From: Candidatus Peregrinibacteria bacterium
GTDB lineage: Bacteria; Patescibacteriota; Gracilibacteria; UBA1369; LOWO2-01-FULL-3
Reading direction: 5' to 3'
Length of the DNA stretch: 64,000 nt
Assembly: GCA_018654255.1 (NCBI GenBank)
Contig: JABILX010000002.1
Span: forward strand, 1-64,000
The notes under the pieces are model-generated. The model made no database searches. It saw only the letters and a program-made list of their open reading frames with translations, and was not told where the DNA came from. Made by a program: the position numbers and the translations under genes. The number at the start of each line of letters is the position of its first letter. Positions within the stretch are counted from its first letter, which is position 1. Of the stretch, positions 2,658 to 15,848 are shown in pieces.

Positions 2658-4490
2658 CTAGTCCATCGTCCTCCAAAGAGCCTCAGCTACCTCAGCTCGA
2701 GTCGTACCATTCGCAGGCAAGAATAAGTTGTCATAGGTGTCAAAAAGCTGCAAATCCTTTGCCTTACAAACATATCCTGTAAACCAAACCTCAGCAGGCA
2801 CATCAAGATAAGGAGAAACATAACAAGACTCCATGCTGAAAGCATTTTCACCAGTAAGCAAAGCTGCTTGCATTACAAATTTCAGGAATTCAACTCTATT
2901 CACTCCCTCAGAAGGCCGAACAGTATCAGCATCTCCATCCCCATGAATCAAATTGTGCATCTTTCCACTTCTCAAATACTTCATATACCATGATCCTGTA
3001 ATCACGTCACTCCATCCCAAATTAGTTCCATCATCATCATACAAATCAAGCTCAAAAGCCCTCATGACAACAGCCAAAACCTCAGCACGATTTATTACTT
3101 CACCAGGATTGAAATACCCATCATAATCCCCTTCAAAAATCCCTTCATCCTTAGACCAAAGAATCGAGTCACAATACGTGTGACTTGATGACACATCAGG
3201 AAACCCACACTCATAATCCACATCATCATCGTCGTCATCGTCATCATCATCATCATCATCATCATCATCTTGTCCCATAGGTTCACATCCACCTGTTTCT
3301 GAGACAATACATCCTGTCTCGGGCACAGTTGCTCCAACTGCATAGCAATTATCATCAAACATTATAAATCCATCACATTCGTCCTCATTAACCTCAACCA
3401 CAAAATCAAGCTCATCGGTATCAGTACCTGTTTCGCTAATATTCTCTACAGTAAGAGAGACAGTATATGTCCCAGCCAAAACAGCCACTCCGTCAGAATC
3501 AAGTCCATCCCAGTAAAGCTCCCAAATCCAATAATCTCCATCTTCTCCAACCATATTTCCACCCTCCAAATCCTTAACAGTCTCACCATCACTATCCAAA
3601 ATCAAATTCTCAAAAAACTCACCATTCTCAAAGTAATTACTATTATAAGTTACAGTCAGAGTTTCACCAGCTTCAAAGTTCACAGGATCCGGAGATACAG
3701 AAAGCTCAACAATCAAATCCTCAAGAGAACCAGAAACAACCTCGAAAGCAACCTCATCGGTATCAGTATCAGTCCCCTCCGCATTACTTATAGAAACACG
3801 AATAGAATAAATCCCATCCTCGACCAAAACGTCTTCTGAATCAAGTCCATCCCAAGTTGCCTCATAAAGAAAGTATTCGCCCATTTCGGTGATCTGGGTC
3901 ACAGTATTGATACTATCCACATCAGCGCCCAAGGCATCAACTACATCGATATCCAAACTATGATTATCAGATTCGGTATACCATTCTTTATACCTAATAA
4001 CCAAAGTTTCTCCACCTCCAAAATTAACCTCACCTTTATCCACAGCAAGATTCATAACAAGAGGCTCAGTATGGATCACAATAACTTCGATCATATCGTA
4101 ATCACTAAAACCTTCTATTACTGAATAAAGCTGAAGTTCATAAGTCCCCTCCATCACAGGCTCACCATCAGCATCATTCCCATCCCAAGAAACCTTATAA
4201 GGACAAGACCCAACCACACAGTCTCCAATAGAAACAAATTCCAAATCAACAACATCAGTAGGAACCGCAACAAAATTATTCACAATTTTAGCAGTATTAG
4301 TTCCAGAAACAGCAGTCTCCGCCAAATCAAAATTTGCAGTCACAACGGAGTCAGCATAAGGATCAACAGCAATCACATCCAATGCCAAATTCCTAATAAT
4401 AGTATCGTCATCCACCGCAAAAGCAGTAGCAGGCAAAATCATCGCCAAAAGCGACACAACACAGAACAAAGAAAGAATCTTCTTTTTCAT
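2658..4490 (-). CDS. SLH-anchored surface protein with FlgD-like Ig repeats and poly-Asp linker
   Basis: This is a 610-residue secreted protein. It has a signal peptide (KKKILSLFCVVSLLAMILPATAFA), then three repeats of about 110 residues that each end in the same core (WDGxDxDGxxVxxGTYxxxL, near residues 115, 215 and 335). That core is typical of FlgD-type Ig-like domains. A Cys-containing segment follows, then a run of about 16 aspartates and three S-layer homology repeats (from about residue 445), the first with YFNPGEVINRAEVLAVVMRAFEL. SLH repeats bind cell-wall polymers, so this is probably an S-layer or wall-bound protein. A terminator lies upstream, so it has its own transcript. Its closest companion in the window is the broken SLH protein at 36748. 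Confidence 0.85.
   Translation of the reverse strand: MKKKILSLFCVVSLLAMILPATAFAVDDDTIIRNLALDVIAVDPYADSVVTANFDLAETAVSGTNTAKIVNNFVAVPTDVVDLEFVSIGDCVVGSCPYKVSWDGNDADGEPVMEGTYELQLYSVIEGFSDYDMIEVIVIHTEPLVMNLAVDKGEVNFGGGETLVIRYKEWYTESDNHSLDIDVVDALGADVDSINTVTQITEMGEYFLYEATWDGLDSEDVLVEDGIYSIRVSISNAEGTDTDTDEVAFEVVSGSLEDLIVELSVSPDPVNFEAGETLTVTYNSNYFENGEFFENLILDSDGETVKDLEGGNMVGEDGDYWIWELYWDGLDSDGVAVLAGTYTVSLTVENISETGTDTDELDFVVEVNEDECDGFIMFDDNCYAVGATVPETGCIVSETGGCEPMGQDDDDDDDDDDDDDDDDVDYECGFPDVSSSHTYCDSILWSKDEGIFEGDYDGYFNPGEVINRAEVLAVVMRAFELDLYDDDGTNLGWSDVITGSWYMKYLRSGKMHNLIHGDGDADTVRPSEGVNRVEFLKFVMQAALLTGENAFSMESCYVSPYLDVPAEVWFTGYVCKAKDLQLFDTYDNLFLPANGTTRAEVAEALWRTMD
3221..3269 (-). repeat. GAT trinucleotide microsatellite (poly-Asp)
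   Basis: An almost pure (ATC)n tract on the + strand, with a few GTC variants, encodes the Asp run that separates the Ig-like part from the SLH anchor. Such tracts change length by slippage, in whole codons here, so the spacer can lengthen or shorten without a frameshift. Confidence 0.9.
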
Positions 4491-4609
4491 AATATTTGGG
4501 TTAAATTAAGTGGGTTTCTAATACGAAAAATGCCACCTAACGTTACCCTGTTACAGAAATTCATTCAAACAAAAAGCCTTTTCAAACCACAGTTTTATCC
4601 AGTTTCTAC

Positions 4610-4648
4610 AAAAAACCTGCCAAACACTTTCGCACCTGACAGGCTTTA
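4610..4648 (-). terminator. Intrinsic terminator
   Basis: On the minus strand AAGCCTGTCA pairs with TGGCAGGTT (one G-U pair) and is followed by T6. It lies just after the stop of the membrane protein gene at 4667 and before the SLH protein start at 4490, so it separates the two units. Confidence 0.7.
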
Positions 4649-4666
4649 AAAATTAAAACTAATCTC

Positions 4667-5047
4667 CTAGTACACAAAGAATCCAAAATACCCAAGCACC
4701 AATCCAAGAATCAATGCGAATACTGGCGCAAACCACATGTACTTAACAAAAACTTTAGCAAACTTCATAAAAGGACCAGGAATCAAAACCAACAAAGCAC
4801 CTTTTACCAAAGCAGCCCAACCAAGAATTGTAATGATCACAGTCCAATCTGCTACCCAGAAATTATGGTATGTAACAAGGAGGAAACCTATAGCAAGAGC
4901 GAACATTCCACCATAAAAAGCAACAGCAGAACTTTTCATAACATCCTTCATCATTTTTTGGTAATACTTCATGTTAAGAAGCATCCCAAGGCCAACAGCC
5001 ACGTACACTACCGCAATCAACTTTGCGATAAACAAAGATAGATCCAT
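4667..5047 (-). CDS. Four-helix membrane protein, paralogue of the one at 29770
   Basis: The product is about 126 residues from the ATG at 5047 (MDLSLFIAKLIAV). That start is preferred because the 12 codons upstream are polar and the helix begins here. Four hydrophobic segments are visible. The middle (FYGGMFALAIGFLLVTYHNFW, then IITILGWAALVKGALLVLIPG) matches the 29770 protein in order and motif (IIPIIGWISLAKGLALLWWP), so the two are paralogues. The function is unknown. The GWxxLxKGxxLLxxP pattern is the best family mark. Confidence 0.65.
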   Translation of the reverse strand: MDLSLFIAKLIAVVYVAVGLGMLLNMKYYQKMMKDVMKSSAVAFYGGMFALAIGFLLVTYHNFWVADWTVIITILGWAALVKGALLVLIPGPFMKFAKVFVKYMWFAPVFALILGLVLGYFGFFVY

Positions 5048-5240
5048 AGAAAGAGGGGTTAAAATATGTGAAAACCATACCATTTATTCAATATCATCTC
5101 AACAACCTACTCTTCAACATAAATTTCCTAGGGATACACCTAGGAAGAGACGAACAATCAAATATTATACAAATTCGGTTTCCATATCCCCGTTATACAA
5201 AATTTGTTAAAATACAAACAGTAAACTTAATCAAACCCCA

Positions 5241-5624
5241 ATGCCAAAAGCAGAAACCCCAGGAGGAGGATCTAAAACAGAGAGAATAGATCCAACTCAA
5301 GAAACCACAGAAAAAATCAAACTAAACAGTAAATCAAAATTAGCAGAGATGAGCGCAATAGTCCCACAGATAGAAGACACTCTCGAACAACCAGAAGACG
5401 ACATAGTTGGAGAACCAGAATTAGAAGACGAAGGAACTTACACCGAATGGATCGAAAACGAACTCCTCTCTGAAGACACTCCTCTCAACACAGAAAAAAG
5501 AAAGGTCCTAGGCAAAATCAAAACAGCAAAAGACATCACAGAAGAAGAAAAAAACAATCTACTAGACCAATTGGTTAAAGCAGAAAAAACAGAGGCCCTA
5601 GAAAAACTTAGCTCAAAACTCTAG
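5241..5624 (+). CDS. Small acidic hypothetical protein
   Basis: This 127-residue protein is rich in Glu, Asp and Lys with no hydrophobic segment. Its first 60 residues look disordered. The end (KRKVLGKIKTAKDITEEEKNNLLDQLVKA) looks like a short helical hairpin. I do not recognise it. The codon use agrees with the neighbours. Its stop lies 4 bases from the converging stop of the 5629 gene, so both ends are tightly packed. Confidence 0.5.
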   Translation: MPKAETPGGGSKTERIDPTQETTEKIKLNSKSKLAEMSAIVPQIEDTLEQPEDDIVGEPELEDEGTYTEWIENELLSEDTPLNTEKRKVLGKIKTAKDITEEEKNNLLDQLVKAEKTEALEKLSSKL

Positions 5625-5628
5625 TAAA

Positions 5629-8052
5629 TCAACTCATAATAGGTCCATCAACCCTATCAACCTCCGCAACCTGTACAGGGATACCATCTTCACCAGGAGA
5701 ATATATTGAAATATCTGATCCCTTATATTCCTTTTCAGCCGCAGCAACATCACCTAGAGTAACCCCCTTTTCTCCAACCTTCATAACCTTTCTATTGTCA
5801 GAAAGATTCCATCTCGGATTAGAAAAAGAAGATTGCCCAAACTCAGAAGCACCTATAAACACGGTATTCTTTTTGAAATTGGCATTATCTTCCACATTGG
5901 CCATAACCTTTCTAAAAAAGCTATGATTCATACACGACCCAATAATATAAATATCTTGAGTCAACTCCTCAGCCCTAGACACAAATTTCTCATTTCTCTT
6001 TCTAACAGCACTAGAAAATTCAGAAACAGATATACACTCATAGGACTCTAACGCTCCAACCTTGTCATCATGCAAAACCAAGGCCTTCTCAAAACCATGT
6101 CCATCAAAATAAAATGTAAAAGGTGGCGGTGTATTTTCAACTTGAGACAAAATTCTCTTCTTCATTAAAAGAAGATCTTCCTTTGAAGGATTTTCCTCAG
6201 CCATCAAGTGCTCAACATTGCCATCTTCTCCAACACTCTGGTTCAGACCTTTGACCATATCTTCGTGACCAAACCGAAGCTGCCCATCGTAAGCCCCACC
6301 TTTCCAATCCTGTCTCTGCGAAACAAAAACAACATTTCTTCCTTCATAAATAGGAATTTCGCTCAGATTGCCCAAACTCGATTCAGACAAATTTTCCGCA
6401 AATCTAACCTGATCAAGAGTCAAATTACCAGCATCAACCCCCCTCATATAGAGATTCCTACCAACTTTAATGGCCTTACCAACATCCTTTTTGTCACCCA
6501 TTTTTTTGTAGACCTCGAAACAAACAAGCATAGCCTCATCACCAAAAAACTTGTCCACAGATTCAGCATCAATTAATTGAGATCCAGAAACTAAATGATG
6601 CAAAAAGTCATTCTGAACTTTCCCATTTGGAGTCCCAAGATTCCTAAGATAGAAATAATTCACTTTTATCAAATTTTCAACATCTGCGGGATCGTTTACA
6701 CTCTTAACCAAATCCAAACCATGATTCATCTTAAGATTATACAAGTCTGTCAAAGGCTTCCTGTATTGCTCATCCTCCAATATCTCCTCAGGAACTTTAA
6801 GTTCGTACAAAGCATTCTTAATATTGTTATCATAGTTTATATCAAACATATCCACCTCTGACTCAAACTGAAGATTTGGATCCAAAATCCCTGCACCCTT
6901 AATATTATCCGACAAAAATCTATATGAATCAAAAACATTAAAACCCCTTTTCTTCAGAGTAGAAACCCATTTAATCAAATTCTCTGGATTTGGATCAATC
7001 CCAACCCACTCAACAGAATAAATCCCAGTAGCAGCTAGAGGAGAACCCTGAATAGCCTTATGAAAAGAAATAGCACGACTTATATCGCGAGTTTTCCTGA
7101 ACCACTCAACGGTTTCACGAAAAGTAACTCCTTCCGTCTTAAATTTAAGAAAATAATTACAAACATTAGCTATATCACGCTCATTATTAATTGTTTTCAA
7201 CTTAGGAACTAATCCCAACACCATCTCAAGATCGTTGGGAATGTATTTGGAAACAGTCTTCACCTGATCCAAAGCTTTGTTGGGATCTCCATACATTTTA
7301 ATGAGGGCTTCACGTACCTCCAAAGGAACTCCCAGCTTCCCCCACTCTCTCCTCATTTCAAAATTCTGCTGAAAATTATCAACACTATCCCTCACCCCAC
7401 TAACAAGCCCCTCTAACACCTCAGCAGTCTTGGCTTCCTCTGACTTCTCCTCATCCACATATCTAGTCTCCTCACCATACTTAACAGGATCAACCCCCAG
7501 ATCAAAAACTTCAGAAAATTTGTTTATAGTAGCAGGTCCAACCTTGCCATCAGGTTGCAAACCAAAAAGATCTTGCAACTTTTTAATACCATCCTCATCA
7601 ATCCCAATAGAAGACTTCAATTTGGAATTTATACCAAGCCAATAAGACCCCTTCTTTCTATAAGTCTCAAGGTTGAAAACTTCCTTAACCTCCTCCTTCT
7701 TAGAAATAAGCTTGTGCGCCTCCTCAATACCAGTCGATTTATCAAACTTATCAAGCTCATTCTCGATACTGCTAGTAAGTTGAGCAAGGCTTGCCTCAGT
7801 ATCAACCTGTAATTTTTTGACTTCAGAATTCCTTTTTCTCAGAAGTTTGTTTAATTTTTTGTGTATTTTGTCTTGGTATTTTTTAGCAACAGGACTTTCA
7901 TCAATTCTATTCCTCATTTTCACAACAAAACCCTTCACCCTCTCCGTATTAACAAGCGGAGCAGGCTCCTGCACTTGATCTTTTTCCTGAGATTCAACGT
8001 CAGGAGTTCTTACCTTCGTTTCTTTTTTTGAGAATGTTTCTACAAGATTCAT
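5629..8052 (-). CDS. Large protein with peptidoglycan-binding-like segment and caspase-like C-terminus
   Basis: This is an 807-residue protein without a signal peptide. A charged, helical N-terminus leads to a segment near residues 150-175 (IKKLQDLFGLQPDGKVGPAT) that fits the PG_binding_1 three-helix repeat. A long unassigned helical region follows. The last 250 residues carry FYFDGHGFEKA (about 660) and, some 65 residues later, DIYIIGSCMNH. The His-Gly and following Cys after a hydrophobic strand are the two-residue centre of clan CD (caspase/gingipain-like) peptidases. I infer a Cys peptidase or a relative of one. The stop is TGA. The neighbour 8055 ends 2 bases upstream and is probably co-transcribed. 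Confidence 0.6.
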   Translation of the reverse strand: MNLVETFSKKETKVRTPDVESQEKDQVQEPAPLVNTERVKGFVVKMRNRIDESPVAKKYQDKIHKKLNKLLRKRNSEVKKLQVDTEASLAQLTSSIENELDKFDKSTGIEEAHKLISKKEEVKEVFNLETYRKKGSYWLGINSKLKSSIGIDEDGIKKLQDLFGLQPDGKVGPATINKFSEVFDLGVDPVKYGEETRYVDEEKSEEAKTAEVLEGLVSGVRDSVDNFQQNFEMRREWGKLGVPLEVREALIKMYGDPNKALDQVKTVSKYIPNDLEMVLGLVPKLKTINNERDIANVCNYFLKFKTEGVTFRETVEWFRKTRDISRAISFHKAIQGSPLAATGIYSVEWVGIDPNPENLIKWVSTLKKRGFNVFDSYRFLSDNIKGAGILDPNLQFESEVDMFDINYDNNIKNALYELKVPEEILEDEQYRKPLTDLYNLKMNHGLDLVKSVNDPADVENLIKVNYFYLRNLGTPNGKVQNDFLHHLVSGSQLIDAESVDKFFGDEAMLVCFEVYKKMGDKKDVGKAIKVGRNLYMRGVDAGNLTLDQVRFAENLSESSLGNLSEIPIYEGRNVVFVSQRQDWKGGAYDGQLRFGHEDMVKGLNQSVGEDGNVEHLMAEENPSKEDLLLMKKRILSQVENTPPPFTFYFDGHGFEKALVLHDDKVGALESYECISVSEFSSAVRKRNEKFVSRAEELTQDIYIIGSCMNHSFFRKVMANVEDNANFKKNTVFIGASEFGQSSFSNPRWNLSDNRKVMKVGEKGVTLGDVAAAEKEYKGSDISIYSPGEDGIPVQVAEVDRVDGPIMS

Positions 8053-9996: not shown

Positions 9997-10012
9997 TCGC
10001 TCTCTGTGAAAA
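9997..10012 (+). repeat. Left inverted repeat of the cassette
   Basis: TCGCTCTCTGTGAAAA; exact reverse complement of 11426-11441. Confidence 0.85.
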
Positions 10013-10056
10013 CATTTTTTATAATACGAGATCATATAGATCCCCATTGCCTCAAA

Positions 10057-10096
10057 GGCGACCCGGGAATCCATGTGTATAGGACCCCGAGCCGCC
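10057..10096 (-). terminator. Strong G+C-rich stem-loop after the MFS gene
   Basis: On the minus strand GGCGGCTCGGGGTCC pairs over 15 positions (three G-U pairs, one bulge) with GGATTCCCGGGTCGCC around the loop TATACACAT. It lies just after the transporter stop. The T-run after it is short, so it is a terminator-like or protective 3-prime hairpin that came with the foreign gene. Confidence 0.6.
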
Positions 10097-10110
10097 ACGA
10101 CGTGTGTGGG

Positions 10111-11355
10111 TCAGTAGACGGACTTCGTCCCTCCCAGCTTGATCGCAACCGGAAGTGTCAGGAAGGCCGGAACCATCCCAGCAACCATCCAGATGACCTT
10201 GTAACTGATGTAGTCGCTGTACGCGGTAAACACCAGCCCCGTCAGGATCGCAAAGATCGCAGCCGACAGATTCGTCGACGCAATCAGGATAGCAAACTTG
10301 GTCGCAGGCCCGTTGGGTCCTGCCCTCTGGGATGCCCTAGTAAAGAACATCCCAATAGCCCCGATGAAGAAGCCATCAGCAAACCCAGTCAGCGCGATGA
10401 TAGGGACAAGCACCCACCGACTAGTCCAGGCATTCACGTATCCAGAAAGCCCAAGGATCAGGTATGCCACAGCCAGTAGCAATACCGCAAAGCCCGGAGC
10501 CCCCGCCTCATCCTCAGCCTTCCCAGCCGAATACGCCCCCACAGCCGCGAAGACGAAGTTCCCGATCAGGAAGTACGCGATCTGGGTAGGCCCATAGCCG
10601 AGACTCAGTAGCCACGGCAGCCCTAGTACCTTGCCGATCGCGAACGTCAGGGACGACACGAACCCGAAGACAAAGAGCCACTTGGCAGCCTTGATCCACT
10701 GCCAGAGATAGGGCCAGTCGATCTGGGTACGCCCCTTTTCCTCCTCGTAGACCCGAAACCTATCCTTGAAGACAACCAGAGGAGCTAACCCGATCATCAC
10801 CACGAAGAGGGCAGCGAGCCCAAGCACCAGAGGCCAATTCGTCACAGGATCATCCCCCAGGATCAGGATCACGAGAGGGAATCCGAAAATTCCCCCGAGG
10901 AAACCAGCTGCCTCCATCCAGGTCCGCAGCTTGCCTCCCCCATCATCCCTGGTCAGATGGACAGCCCATCCGTCAATAGCCACGTCAGTCGACACACGTC
11001 CAAGGCTGCAGAGCGCAACCATGATGACAAGTGTGGAAAGCGAGAGCCCACCCCAATCGAACATTAGGGACAAGGCTCCAACGGCAATCGCCACCAAACC
11101 AATACTAACAAACACCCAGTTGTGGTACTTCCAGTACCAGTCCTGGATATATGCATTGATCGGCTTGATTGCCCAAGGCAAGTATGCCAGAGCAATCAAA
11201 AGACCCCCCTCGAGAGGAGTCCCCCCCGAAACGTACAAGTAGTACAACGTCGCATCCATGGTCAGAGCTCCCACAAACCCCAGAATGAAGTAAGTCAGCG
11301 GGAAGTAAGCCATAACCACCTTGTCATTGAGCACAGACTTCGTCATGAAACTCAT
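10111..11355 (-). CDS. MFS transporter (AmpG/PAT-like), laterally acquired
   Basis: This 414-residue protein is almost wholly hydrophobic, with about 12 predicted membrane helices. The first loop segment LAYLPWAIKPINAYIQDWYW resembles the AmpG/PAT branch of the major facilitator superfamily (lead Pro-W, K-P, D-W positions). AmpG relatives carry muropeptides or acetyl-CoA; the substrate here cannot be told. The gene is clearly foreign in base use (G/C-rich third positions), has a strong Shine-Dalgarno (AGAGGTGAT, 5-6 bases before ATG) unlike its neighbours, and ends in TGA. It lies alone inside the inverted-repeat cassette, reading away from the 11709 gene. Confidence 0.8.
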   Translation of the reverse strand: MSFMTKSVLNDKVVMAYFPLTYFILGFVGALTMDATLYYLYVSGGTPLEGGLLIALAYLPWAIKPINAYIQDWYWKYHNWVFVSIGLVAIAVGALSLMFDWGGLSLSTLVIMVALCSLGRVSTDVAIDGWAVHLTRDDGGGKLRTWMEAAGFLGGIFGFPLVILILGDDPVTNWPLVLGLAALFVVMIGLAPLVVFKDRFRVYEEEKGRTQIDWPYLWQWIKAAKWLFVFGFVSSLTFAIGKVLGLPWLLSLGYGPTQIAYFLIGNFVFAAVGAYSAGKAEDEAGAPGFAVLLLAVAYLILGLSGYVNAWTSRWVLVPIIALTGFADGFFIGAIGMFFTRASQRAGPNGPATKFAILIASTNLSAAIFAILTGLVFTAYSDYISYKVIWMVAGMVPAFLTLPVAIKLGGTKSVY

Positions 11356-11708
11356 CTCATCACCTCTTTTTTCATTGGGCCAAAATCGGCCGTTTTTTGT
11401 ATAGTTCTCTGAACCATTTTATATTTTTTCACAGAGAGCGACCCATCCATTTAACTTGGATAGGAAACCGCTCAACTGAATGATCTGTTTTAGCTCACCC
11501 AGGAGCATTTCCTTATCACAAATGGACAAGTTTCTCTCTGCGAATTTCCAAACTATTATTAGACTATATTTCAAGGAGCAAGACAAATCGGAATTTAGGA
11601 GTATAATTCTGAATCACCCTCCAGTAAAAAGCAACTTCTTTTGTTTGATAAAAGCCCCCTATCATAGTACGATCGCACCCAATCCAAAATTTCCTAAACC
11701 CTTCAAAT
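11356..11708. other. 353-base intergenic stretch
   Basis: The first part holds the transporter leader, a GGCC-AAAATC-GGCC motif at about 11381-11394 and the right inverted repeat. From 11442 on I see only A+T-rich sequence leading to the large ATPase gene. One short open frame (11480-11719) has a composition unlike the real genes and overlaps the next start, so I do not call it. Confidence 0.4.
11426..11441 (-). repeat. Right inverted repeat of the cassette
   Basis: TTTTCACAGAGAGCGA; exact reverse complement of 9997-10012. Confidence 0.85.
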
Positions 11709-14700
11709 ATGAGCGATAAAAAAGGCCCTCAATATCCCTCGATAGGAGATGTAGAAGAAACTTTAGATATAAAAGATTTAGACAAATTTGTTGGACTAGA
11801 TGAACAAGCGGCCCCAGACCTTTCAAAGACACCACGCAAGATTACACATCAACGCGCAATAGATTCTACTCGCCCACCAAACGAAATTTACCAAGGACTA
11901 AGCCCACATCAAAAATTGGCCTTCAGCTTAGATCACCTAGAACCAACTTCATTCTCAGAAACTCTAACCGGTCAACAAAAAGTTGTAATAATCAAATTCA
12001 GAAAAGAAGACCAAGACAAAGCGTTCGAGCTAATTAAAAGAGCTTCAGCCTCAATAGCCCCAGAAGCACAAACTACAAGATTCTTGGGAAATGGAAATGA
12101 AGACACAATTTCAATACCAGTAGTCCTAAACAATCCAGCCTTTCTAGGAAGAATTGTAAAAACCGCAAAAGCAGCAGGTTTAGACTTGAGAATTACACAG
12201 GTTGAAACAAACAAAGTCCCAAGTTTGAAATTAGGATCAAACCTGCTACTAATACACGAAGCCCTTCGTTCACCCGGAGAAGTCACAAAAGAAAAAGTCG
12301 ACTGCAGAAGAATTCCATCACCAGAAGAAGTAATAGAAGAACCACTCCCCTTCCCAACAAAAGAAGAACTATTGAAAGCAGAAGCTCTTAAACTAAGCAA
12401 AATTCCTCGAAAAGGACCAAGTAACTACCTAGTAGTAGATATTAGATCAATCTCATCCCCAGAAATTTTCAACCAAATAACAGATATCATTGGTGCATTT
12501 GGATCAGACAACACCCAAATCTTCCAATTCAACGGATCCCTAGTTGCAACCAACATCTCAGAACGTGCAGGAACTTCAATCAAAGAACTCCTAAGAACAC
12601 TTTCAGAAGCAACCGACAGTAAAGCAGTCCAATACTACGACCGAGGCGACATCAAAGGATCAAAGAACGGACTTTATATCGAAGGATTCCCAAGCCAAAA
12701 AAAATTAAACGAAATATATCAACATTCCATCAATTCTCACCGAGTCGGTATGAACGCATTCCTCTCAGATGAATTAGCTAAAAAAGTAAATATAGGAAGA
12801 GACGCCAGTAGAATAACAATGGAAACCACTCAAACCAGTATGGAAGGCCTATCCGAAATCACAGAAGTAAACGATAAAATTGGCCTAAACGATGAAGGAG
12901 GCCCAGACAGAGTAATAGGAAAAGTAAAAGAACGACAAGAATTAAAAGAAGCCACAAATCCAACTAAACAAACTCCACGCCTTGTAATAGTCGAAGGAGA
13001 AAAAGGTGACGGAAAATCATGCTTGATTGAAGAAATAAGAAAAATGAGAAAATCAATTTCAGTTCAATTCAATCCTGAAAAAGCAAACTCTTCATATTCA
13101 CAACTACAAGAATTCGCTATTCAAGCAGCAAGAGGCATCAAAGAATATAAAAATAAATTAGAAAACATTCAAAAAAAACCAGAAATTGATGACGACCTGT
13201 CAGCCATCCAATGGGAACTAGATCAAATCACTCCTTTAACAGATTTCGCAGCAGCCCCTACCCTACCAACCAACGATGACGAAGCTCAAGAACTAGTAGA
13301 AACAATCCTCTCAGCACTATTGACACAAGAGTCAGCACTGCTAATCATAGATGACTACCACCACATAGACCCAGACTCAGAGAAATGTATTGTAAGCTTA
13401 CTAGAAAGATTTTTGGGATCCTCAAACAACAAAGTTTTGATCTCAACCAGATCAGAACCACAAGAAACAACCCCAGCTCAAAGAGCATACCTGGAAAGCA
13501 TCGCTGCAAAGAAATTTGGACTCAAAAAAGTAGAGGTCCTCCCAACTCACTTCTTGAAAGAGTTAGAAGCCTTATTAGAAGATGGTGGTGACATAACCCT
13601 TTCTACAGCCTACCAATACATTTTTTACTCAATGCCAGTAGAAAAAAGAATGATATCAGGGACAGATACTCCAAAGACTCTAGGACACGGAGTCAGAGAA
13701 CTAGCAGAAGGATCAGGATCTCCACTGGAAATGGTTACAAACATAATTGCTCTGAAATACGACTTTGATAAAAATTTCATAGTTACAGCAGATACGATAG
13801 ATATCAGACAAGAAGCAATCGACAACCTAAAAGACGAAGGTGGTGGATGGGACATGAGAACGTTAAATGCAAAAGAAGTTGCAGAAAAACTAACACCACA
13901 ACAAAGACAGTTCTTAGCTTGTATCTCAATGATCGGATCAGAAGCAAGCGCCGAAAATCTAGAAACAATAGCAAGAGAAGTCTTGGGAATGGACACAGCA
14001 GGCCTAATCGCAGAATTAAGAGAAAAGAAATTCCTCAAACCAACTAGACTAAATGACGAAGGAAGGATATCTCATTTCAAAATAAGACACGACACTCTAA
14101 GACAAGCAATTCTAGAAGGATTCACAGATGAATCAAAAATAGACATGGGACCAAAGCTATTTAACAAATTTAAAGATCGAACAGACATCCCCGACGAAAT
14201 AAAATTCTCCCTACTTCAATACGGAATAACGGGGGCTAAAGTAACAAAAGACAAAGAGTTATGGGAACAGTATATTGAATATGCAAATCTAACACTAGAT
14301 GAAGCAACAGAAAATCATCAAAACAGTAAAACCTTCCACTTATCAGGAGAAGTCCTCGGAGACATAGACTATCCAAAAGGTGAACTTGCAACAGTCCTCC
14401 CTTTACTCCAAGGAAACATTCCAATTCCAAGACTATACATTCCGTTAGCAAAACTGATCGTAAAAGCGCTAATTGCTTCAGCAAAATCAGGTCTACAAGT
14501 CGGAAAATTCAACAATGTATACAACGTGGTAGCAACACTAGAAACAATCCATCATTTTCACTCAGATAACGTTAATTTCAAGATAGATCTAAATGAAATC
14601 CAAAGAATAGCATTCGAAGCAGCATACGCAGAAGGAAACCCTGAAATGCTAGAAAGATTTAAATCAGCAAAACCATCTGAAGAACAAGCTCTAATGCAAG

Positions 14701-15848
14701 AACTCAAACTAAGATACAGAACTTCAGAAAGAGCAGGAGGAGAAGAAAAGCTTACAAAAATAAAAGAGCTACTAGCCTACTATGACGAACAAGAATTCGA
14801 TGCTCTATTAGACGCAACCCCAGAAGAAACCAAAAGAATAGAAAGGCTACACGAAAGAATACAAATCCAAGCCACAATACTGGAAAGAAAATCCAGACTA
14901 ACATTCGATGACGATGTCGAACTTCAAATCCACGGATTTTCACCAAAAGAAATTTCAGAGTTGGAAAGAATCAAAAGAAACACTGAATATTTAAGAGCAG
15001 AACTAGAAAGAAATCCAAAATTGCTAGAAGATATCGACAAATTAAATCTATCTATTCAAGAAGGAGATCTTGCAGCTCTAACAGGAGACACAGACCAAGC
15101 CCTTTTGTCACTTACGGAAGGACTCAGAACCGCAAGAAAAATGGAAAATTACCATGTTGCCTTCACACTAGTGAAAAAAATTGGTGACCTACAAGTAATA
15201 AAAGGTCTTTCAAAACAAGACGAAGATGACATAAAAAGATTTCAAAGAAGCGATGCCCCAGATCCTCAATGGTTCGACAAAGCAATCGACACATATTCAC
15301 AAGGACTTACTCTACTAAAAGTACTAGGAAACGAAACATCTGAACACAACTTATTTCTCAGAATCCAATACCTAAGAGCAATTGCAAAAAAATGCCAAGT
15401 CTACACAAAAAGACTAACAACACTCAAAAAAACACAGGAAGACCAGGGGATCCTTGCAAAAATGGAACAAGAAATGACCACCCTTATGGAAAGTGCATTT
15501 GAAGAACTGAAATTCCTCGAGGATTCACCAGCTTTCGGACCCGCACTAGATGACCCAGAAGACGGCCCAGAAATAGCCTACTACATGACCTCATCAATAG
15601 GATACGTTCTCAACTTCAAAAAAACACTGGATAACATCAAATTGAGAGTCGAAGAAAATCCAACAATTGATCCAGATGAAACAATAATTCCAGATAATCT
15701 AAAAGAATTTAGATCAATGAGAGAGGACACTATCGAATCAGGAATCCAATTCGGATCCGTTCTAGAGGACGACAATTTAGAGGAAAACACGGACAAACAA
15801 ACCGGCCTCAATCACGCACAATCAATCCATCATTCAGAAGCAGCCTAA
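11709..15848 (+). CDS. Giant STAND/AAA_16-type ATPase with helical repeat C-terminus
   Basis: This 1379-residue protein has an N-terminal part of about 400 residues, then VIGKVKERQELKEA, which is like the Gly-Arg-x-x-E-L lead seen before AAA_16 domains. The P-loop GEKGDGKSCL is near residue 432, Walker B ALLIIDDYHHID near 543, and sensor-like KVLISTRSEP soon after. From about 800 to the end it is helical and TPR-like. This is the layout of STAND NTPases, used as large signal switches. The segment at about residues 240-360 could be a degenerate nucleotide-cyclase-like domain, as found before AAA_16 in other proteins, but I see no catalytic residues. It is a single-gene unit; the partner or trigger is unknown. 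Confidence 0.75.
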   Translation: MSDKKGPQYPSIGDVEETLDIKDLDKFVGLDEQAAPDLSKTPRKITHQRAIDSTRPPNEIYQGLSPHQKLAFSLDHLEPTSFSETLTGQQKVVIIKFRKEDQDKAFELIKRASASIAPEAQTTRFLGNGNEDTISIPVVLNNPAFLGRIVKTAKAAGLDLRITQVETNKVPSLKLGSNLLLIHEALRSPGEVTKEKVDCRRIPSPEEVIEEPLPFPTKEELLKAEALKLSKIPRKGPSNYLVVDIRSISSPEIFNQITDIIGAFGSDNTQIFQFNGSLVATNISERAGTSIKELLRTLSEATDSKAVQYYDRGDIKGSKNGLYIEGFPSQKKLNEIYQHSINSHRVGMNAFLSDELAKKVNIGRDASRITMETTQTSMEGLSEITEVNDKIGLNDEGGPDRVIGKVKERQELKEATNPTKQTPRLVIVEGEKGDGKSCLIEEIRKMRKSISVQFNPEKANSSYSQLQEFAIQAARGIKEYKNKLENIQKKPEIDDDLSAIQWELDQITPLTDFAAAPTLPTNDDEAQELVETILSALLTQESALLIIDDYHHIDPDSEKCIVSLLERFLGSSNNKVLISTRSEPQETTPAQRAYLESIAAKKFGLKKVEVLPTHFLKELEALLEDGGDITLSTAYQYIFYSMPVEKRMISGTDTPKTLGHGVRELAEGSGSPLEMVTNIIALKYDFDKNFIVTADTIDIRQEAIDNLKDEGGGWDMRTLNAKEVAEKLTPQQRQFLACISMIGSEASAENLETIAREVLGMDTAGLIAELREKKFLKPTRLNDEGRISHFKIRHDTLRQAILEGFTDESKIDMGPKLFNKFKDRTDIPDEIKFSLLQYGITGAKVTKDKELWEQYIEYANLTLDEATENHQNSKTFHLSGEVLGDIDYPKGELATVLPLLQGNIPIPRLYIPLAKLIVKALIASAKSGLQVGKFNNVYNVVATLETIHHFHSDNVNFKIDLNEIQRIAFEAAYAEGNPEMLERFKSAKPSEEQALMQELKLRYRTSERAGGEEKLTKIKELLAYYDEQEFDALLDATPEETKRIERLHERIQIQATILERKSRLTFDDDVELQIHGFSPKEISELERIKRNTEYLRAELERNPKLLEDIDKLNLSIQEGDLAALTGDTDQALLSLTEGLRTARKMENYHVAFTLVKKIGDLQVIKGLSKQDEDDIKRFQRSDAPDPQWFDKAIDTYSQGLTLLKVLGNETSEHNLFLRIQYLRAIAKKCQVYTKRLTTLKKTQEDQGILAKMEQEMTTLMESAFEELKFLEDSPAFGPALDDPEDGPEIAYYMTSSIGYVLNFKKTLDNIKLRVEENPTIDPDETIIPDNLKEFRSMREDTIESGIQFGSVLEDDNLEENTDKQTGLNHAQSIHHSEAA

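Follow-up and report, generated by a model that had tools for sequence, protein, structure and literature searches.

A single G+C-rich transporter gene enclosed by perfect inverted repeats in the genome of a Candidatus Peregrinibacteria bacterium raises the question whether it travels as the passenger of a mobile element or owes its enclosure to something else. CPR bacteria rely on partners and imported functions, and units such as this one bear on the expression of foreign high-GC genes in a minimal cell of low GC content. An earlier note, made from the letters of this DNA alone (64,000 nucleotides of contig JABILX010000002.1, here called the window), had read the locus as a non-autonomous mobile unit. 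Our analysis upholds the foreign gene; the two repeat copies, in turn, make better sense as pairing arms in the RNA of a boxA leader/trailer unit than as the ends of a transposon.

A foreign transporter gene in a compact unit

The transporter ORF has a GC content of 0.557 and a GC3 of 0.687, compared with a mean GC3 of 0.349 (sd 0.070) for the 62 ORFs of the window, among which it is the single strong GC3 outlier. GC content, GC3, the strong Shine-Dalgarno sequence and the G+C-rich hairpin behind the stop codon (-39 kcal/mol, z -3.6, without a clean U-tract), by which the gene had been set apart from its surroundings, were all reproduced. The protein matches Pfam BT1 above the gathering score as a distant MFS/BT1 member, and a profile built from five unit-borne relatives retrieved AmpG muropeptide permeases (E 5e-26) and the SLC33 acetyl-CoA transporter; judged by these family profiles, it most probably belongs to the AmpG/BT1 branch of the MFS. 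Relatives of the transporter were found at 21–29% identity only, in the same order and class, and none outside the class. Genome contigs, viral contigs and plasmids contained no close relative, and thus no donor candidate. The view that a foreign gene resides here in a compact unit is supported by composition, compactness and patchy occurrence in relatives, and the unit probably arrived by horizontal transfer.

The inverted repeat belongs to a larger conserved unit

The repeat TCGCTCTCTGTGAAAA is a perfect 16-bp inverted repeat (9997–10012 on the plus strand, 11426–11441 on the minus strand), and 18 of 19 positions match when it is extended. The MFS gene is the sole ORF between the copies and, as previously noted, no transposase is present in this part. 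A search of the 1.24-Mb genome, allowing up to two mismatches, gave no further copy, which speaks against an ordinary terminator shared with native genes. Our sample of the own genome covers 37% (about 464–468 kb: the window plus 20-kb stretches). In about 468 kb, with an integron array excluded, there are just two perfect inverted repeats of at least 16 bp at a spacing of 250–3500 bp, both of which flank GC3-outlier genes.

The repeat pair itself was thus confirmed, but not its role as the exact boundary of the unit, since the conserved part extends past 11441 to about 11630 and thereby gains the 5′ strand of a hairpin, a boxA-like motif and a promoter (Table 1). Strand A and the repeat at the 5′ side of the gene (B) fold as one hairpin, so that the right-hand repeat provides one of the two halves of a hairpin in the leader. 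If the unit is read as a leader/trailer RNA, the 16-bp terminal inverted repeats of the former description become arms B and C.

Table 1. Features of the transporter unit in the window and positions of related transporter units in other genomes.
Feature	Genome, locus	Position	Strand	Evidence
Trailer arm C (left-hand repeat; complementary to B)	window	9997..10012	-	sequence, repeat search, pairing
G+C-rich hairpin 3′ of the stop codon	window	10043..10110 (about)	-	folding
MFS transporter, BT1/AmpG/SLC33-like, 414 aa	window	10111..11355	-	Pfam BT1, AmpG profile match, composition
Shine-Dalgarno GAGGTGAT, near-consensus	window	11359..11366	-	read from sequence
Arm B (right-hand repeat; 3′ strand of hairpin outer stem)	window	11426..11441	-	sequence, repeat search, pairing
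Leader hairpin A-B, 119 nt	window	11426..11544	-	folding, covariation, covariance model
Strand A (hairpin 5′ strand), beyond the cassette drawn earlier	window	11519..11544	-	conservation, pairing
boxA-like motif TGCTCCTTGAAATAT	window	11566..11580	-	motif comparison across units
Putative sigma-70 promoter: -35 TTTACT (11623–11628), 17-nt spacer, -10 TATACT (11600–11605)	window	11600..11628	-	consensus match only
Transporter unit	G033, L037	1472-2778		
Transporter unit	G018, L038	6765-8247		
Transporter unit	G012, L026	4142-5621		
Transporter unit	G022, L027	5257-6763		
Transporter unit	G008, L034	3792-5212		
Transporter units	G017, G073	cut by contig ends		

The leader combines a boxA-like motif with a conserved hairpin

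In every transporter unit the right repeat is preceded on its 5′ side by strand A, then by a TCTTTGAAAATT-like motif and then by a -10-like hexamer. The A-B hairpin consists of two stems, the outer one of about 11 bp and the inner one of about 11–13 bp, with a small symmetric internal loop between them, and ends in a variable branched tip. In the window it folds with -55.2 kcal/mol (z -7.6) and lies mostly outside the cassette as first claimed; the leaders of five other units reach folding z values of -4.5 to -6.0. When eight sequences are aligned, 84.9% of the cells are paired and 10 of 22 pairs are changed on both sides, compared with 2–5 in slid controls. The covariance model scores the window leader with 81.7 bits, a value to be read with the window sequence itself included in the model. 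Since G-U pairs are common in the hairpin, A-B fits RNA better than a DNA cruciform. No Rfam family was found at the leader.

Among 11 units that had been collected without regard to the motif, 10 carry a boxA with at most one mismatch, 8–33 nt from the hairpin or arm, compared with 1.1% of control windows, the pattern having been partly tuned on these units. -10-like hexamers of variable quality lie 12–45 nt 5′ of boxA in all units, so that boxA is located between a putative promoter and the leader helix, as in an rRNA-type unit. The pattern resembles the published consensus of gamma-proteobacteria, GYTCTTTAANA (PMC5725501). The same motif occurs in the own-genome 16S leader (TCTTTTACAAAA, 86 nt 5′ of the 16S start), and the genome encodes NusB according to a profile match over the cut-off. 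The 16S rRNA gene (G000:C6 186380–187123, L095) is cut by the contig end and matches in three pieces, with possible short insertions.

A trailer offers a second partner for strand B

Trailer arm C lies 40–125 nt 3′ of the stop codon and is the second partner of strand B. Leader-trailer complementarity amounts to 16 bp in the window and to 12–24 nt in other units, with a significance per unit that ranges from strong to weak. We scored B-C as ungapped helices in place of whole-length leader-trailer duplex energies, which were uninformative because they sum many short helices. Several single units reached B-C scores of 27–40, against a control mean of 23.2 (sd 4.3) and one unrelated control gene with 44.5. 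In a cross table of four own-genome leaders, each pairs best with its own trailer, and complementarity is retained while the arm sequences vary between cargo families. The window and G022/G012 give hints of an additional outer helix beyond C, GGAAATTCGC/GCGAATTTCC, which as a general feature does not reach significance (p 0.06 overall).

Related transporter units occur at several loci in the same order

The layout of promoter, boxA, hairpin, gene and complementary trailer recurs in seven further genomes with diverged transporters, whose identity, where measured, is 21–28%. All of these units are single genes with a GC content of 0.52–0.61 in genomes near 0.40–0.47. The units of G012 and G022 occupy one common locus adjoining ilvB; a sample of about 1.17 Mb from the congener G027 did not contain this locus. 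The remaining units are located elsewhere. Arms near YCGCTCTCTGTGAAAA are common to units at different loci in several genera. Among the class matches listed, there was no repeat pair beyond the order.

One unit can be compared with empty sites. In G008 it sits between a gene for an 856-aa protein and a giant AAA_16-type gene, and the orthologous pair stands without the unit, about 85–150 bp apart, in G022, G012, G029, G027 and G011 (the 703–856-aa proteins share 38–43% identity). The empty-site comparison that the earlier note had proposed was thus made in five relatives for the G008 unit, at family-level distance, rather than for the window's own unit.

Giant AAA_16-type proteins (1300–1440 aa) adjoin the transporter unit on either side in five of eight genomes (window 11709–15848; also L034, L036, L037 and L038). 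They are 20–29% identical, and their genes may be a partner gene or an insertion hot spot. In G033, a CitMHS-type citrate transporter gene (L037 31–1314, GC about 0.6) lies at the end of the contig, oriented towards the transporter unit in convergent fashion, and may be a second import.

The same design carries other cargo

The hairpin covariance model, R1, was searched across the order and recovered three leaders absent from its building set. That of G068 precedes an OPT-family transporter (Pfam OPT, E 4.5e-59) in a high-GC region and comes with boxA, hairpin and the trailer TTCAATAGAGAGTGG; that of G082 belongs to a lipoprotein/membrane gene (ORF GC 0.595) with the trailer AAGAGCAGAGAG; the third, in G011, lies at a contig end. 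Matches in G083 (E 0.008) and G074 (E 0.08) were judged false because they lie inside native genes. The class-wide search gave no leader outside the order. Scanning 84,980 species genomes for the pattern returned four Peregrinibacteria/Peribacteria/Patescibacteria records and three chance-like hits. The latter, non-CPR hits in Anaerolineales, Shimwellia and Aurantimicrobium were discarded, their number being close to chance expectation and no boxA-led unit being recognised in the sequence shown.

Further units of the own genome emerged from a motif search and from the own-genome sample. On C2, a Cys-rich membrane protein (GC3 0.79) is encoded with boxA, hairpin and the arms TCTGTTTGTAGCG/CGCTACAAGCAGA; its leader belongs to the same family as those of G068 and G082. 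C1 harbours a gene for a secreted 431-aa protein (GC3 0.86) with the boxA TGATCTTTTACAAAT, the arms AAATAGGCATTACGGT/ACCGTAATGCCTATTT immediately next to it, and a hairpin; here a promoter-like sequence, itself with a long spacer, is found between the boxA leader and the gene, near the gene start. A second C1 gene codes for a lipoprotein and has boxA and arms of at least 24 nt. The strong GC3 outliers of the 37% sample are three in number: the transporter gene of the window and the genes for the Cys-rich protein on C2 and the secreted protein on C1. All three have boxA plus complementary leader and trailer arms, in three different sequences. With the integron array excluded, only two of these three combine arms scoring at least 38 with a boxA that deviates at no more than one position, and such a combination occurs nowhere else in the sample. 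As the arms are complementary within a unit but bear no relation to those of other cargo families, it is unlikely that one transposase recognises them all.

In G027, two high-GC3 putative lipoprotein genes have leaders of unusual stability, and a boxA-like motif precedes one of these leaders. The first (L176 14606–15262) is a GC3 outlier preceded by GATCCTTGAGTTAT, which is boxA-like, and by a long leader hairpin of unrelated sequence. The other (L186 15641–17803, GC 0.61) has a hairpin of about 45 bp on its 5′ side, where boxA is doubtful.

Mobile-element and integron explanations

Could the unit nevertheless be a non-autonomous transposon or mobile insertion cassette, with B and C as terminal inverted repeats that a transposase from another locus would cut in trans, and with the upstream hairpin and boxA as an accessory end or an insertion preference? 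The perfect repeat, its nearly fixed sequence in transporter units at unrelated loci of several genera, the empty site of the G008 unit and the adjacency of five of eight units to the AAA_16-type gene would fit such an element. Nonetheless, we regard it as unlikely. The repeats do not form the very ends: in all units strand A, boxA and the promoter are located outside the right copy and are conserved together with it. Target-site duplications are absent at the repeats in those units that have both ends, although age could have erased them. The repeat pair has no further copy in its genome, and the same ends were not found on any transposase-bearing element among the class matches listed. Other foreign genes of the same genome have unrelated arms in the same layout. 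To our knowledge, no matching IS has been described for these units. The view of the repeats as terminal inverted repeats of a mobile unit is therefore not supported.

An integron-type cassette, in which the A-B hairpin would be a folded recombination site and the gene would have been inserted outside an array by an integron integrase, appears very improbable. It is true that half-site C, the gene and a two-stem B-A hairpin with spacer resemble an integrated cassette with attC, and that the own genome has an integron (L134; G000, C3, 60000–79999; positions 2891–8000), made up of an integrase-like gene (2891–3772, minus strand; best match TIGR02249, below the cut-off) and, following it, an array of attC-like cassettes. 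One member of this array (about 6874–6560, minus strand) even consists of a boxA-hairpin leader, a Shine-Dalgarno sequence, a decayed ORF and a complementary trailer. On the other hand, the hairpin stands upstream of the gene behind the promoter rather than downstream, it contains many G-U pairs, the arms vary between units, and the GTT/AAC core is missing from A and B; inspection by eye of these strands in the units read gave no attC core GTTRRRY or RYYYAAC. The decayed unit in the array is a lead, rather than a demonstration, as to how such DNA moves.

A probable transcription unit built like an rRNA operon

We favour, with a probability of roughly 0.6, the reading that the window contains a one-gene transcription unit for an imported, G+C-rich AmpG-like transporter whose RNA-level build is that of an rRNA operon. 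Transcription would start from the putative sigma-70 promoter about 25 nt upstream of the boxA-like motif. NusB/S10, bound to this motif, would load an antitermination complex and thereby let RNA polymerase through the strong leader hairpin and then the reading frame, which is G+C-rich and prone to termination. During its synthesis the leader is predicted to fold as the A-B hairpin. Once the trailer emerges, C may pair with B over 16 bp across the whole mRNA, and the ends joined in this way, like the leader-trailer helix of pre-16S RNA, might protect or process the mRNA. From the layout of the unit we infer transcription, Nus binding, antitermination, pairing in the cell and an effect on expression.

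An rRNA-type unit is supported by the folding and covariation of A-B, the recurrence of boxA and its occurrence in the own 16S leader, the NusB gene, the same leader family on other cargo, and the boxA plus complementary arms at all three strong GC3 outliers of the sample, each leader pairing best with its own trailer. Counting against it are the competition of A and C for strand B, a boxA pattern partly tuned on these units, a B-C helix that in several single units is only modest compared with controls, an outer helix short of significance, and the internal promoter-like sequence of the C1 unit; the recurrence at unrelated loci and the fixed arms of the transporter units would suit a mobile element as well. 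We know of no direct rRNA parallel for two partners competing for one strand. This very competition in the transporter units would suit a translation-control RNA like type I toxin mRNAs, in which A-B is the form taken by the nascent RNA, and translation or decay is set by B-C, the form of the full-length RNA, with no role for antitermination; moreover, boxA and Nus factors can also reduce expression (PMC5725501). Yet the Shine-Dalgarno sequence lies outside the paired arms, the cargo consists of transporters and surface proteins rather than small toxins, and boxA is found in nearly all units, which makes translation control a quite unlikely explanation.

Implications for gene import

Beyond the rRNA-like unit of the window, we tentatively consider, as a possibility that we would not yet call probable, a gene-import platform of the Peregrinibacteria. 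Foreign genes that encode transporters or surface proteins would be interchangeable inserts between two constant flanks, a promoter-boxA-hairpin leader of standard form and a trailer complementary to it, the G+C-rich imports being expressed via borrowed rRNA antitermination machinery and the module moving with, or being added to, each gene. If the rRNA-like reading is right, and foreign high-GC genes are run under antitermination leaders of the rRNA type, foreign host-interaction genes could be found by the leader alone, boxA/Nus function would be linked to horizontal gene uptake, and the transposon-like single-gene cassettes with inverted repeats and no transposase in such genomes would be explained. 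Cargo of the kinds seen, namely AmpG-like and OPT transporters, lipoproteins and a secreted protein, might serve an epibiont in scavenging from a partner or in making contact with it.

Comparison with known systems

With AmpG muropeptide permeases and the SLC33 acetyl-CoA transporter the protein shares a profile match across nearly the full length, but it is distant in sequence. The mobile insertion cassettes MIC231 and mic-qnrD (PMC3913671) likewise consist of one passenger gene with its own promoter and inverted repeats and no transposase inside; in contrast, the units described here are without target duplication, their repeat is not terminal and their arms differ within one genome. A further comparison is with boxA-regulated mRNAs such as suhB and that of a Citrobacter koseri toxin gene. 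These protein-coding transcripts, too, carry boxA in their 5′ UTR, and suhB is repressed by Nus factors; the part of the source consulted does not report enclosing leader-trailer arms or a long hairpin for them (PMC5725501).

In E. coli rRNA operons, boxC lies 18–19 nt after boxA in the leader strand of a helix that is closed by the trailer; according to a published proposal, it stays close to the polymerase up to the appearance of the trailer (PMC10250234). Such operons and our units have in common a promoter, boxA, complementarity between a leader strand and a trailer on the far side of the product, a helix, predicted in our units, that forms despite varying arm sequences, and the presence of NusB. 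Unlike the rRNA operon, the units enclose a single foreign protein-coding gene, without rRNA or tRNA, and have an extra hairpin A-B on the same strand. By analogy of layout, the E. coli rRNA leader is the closest known anatomy to these units.
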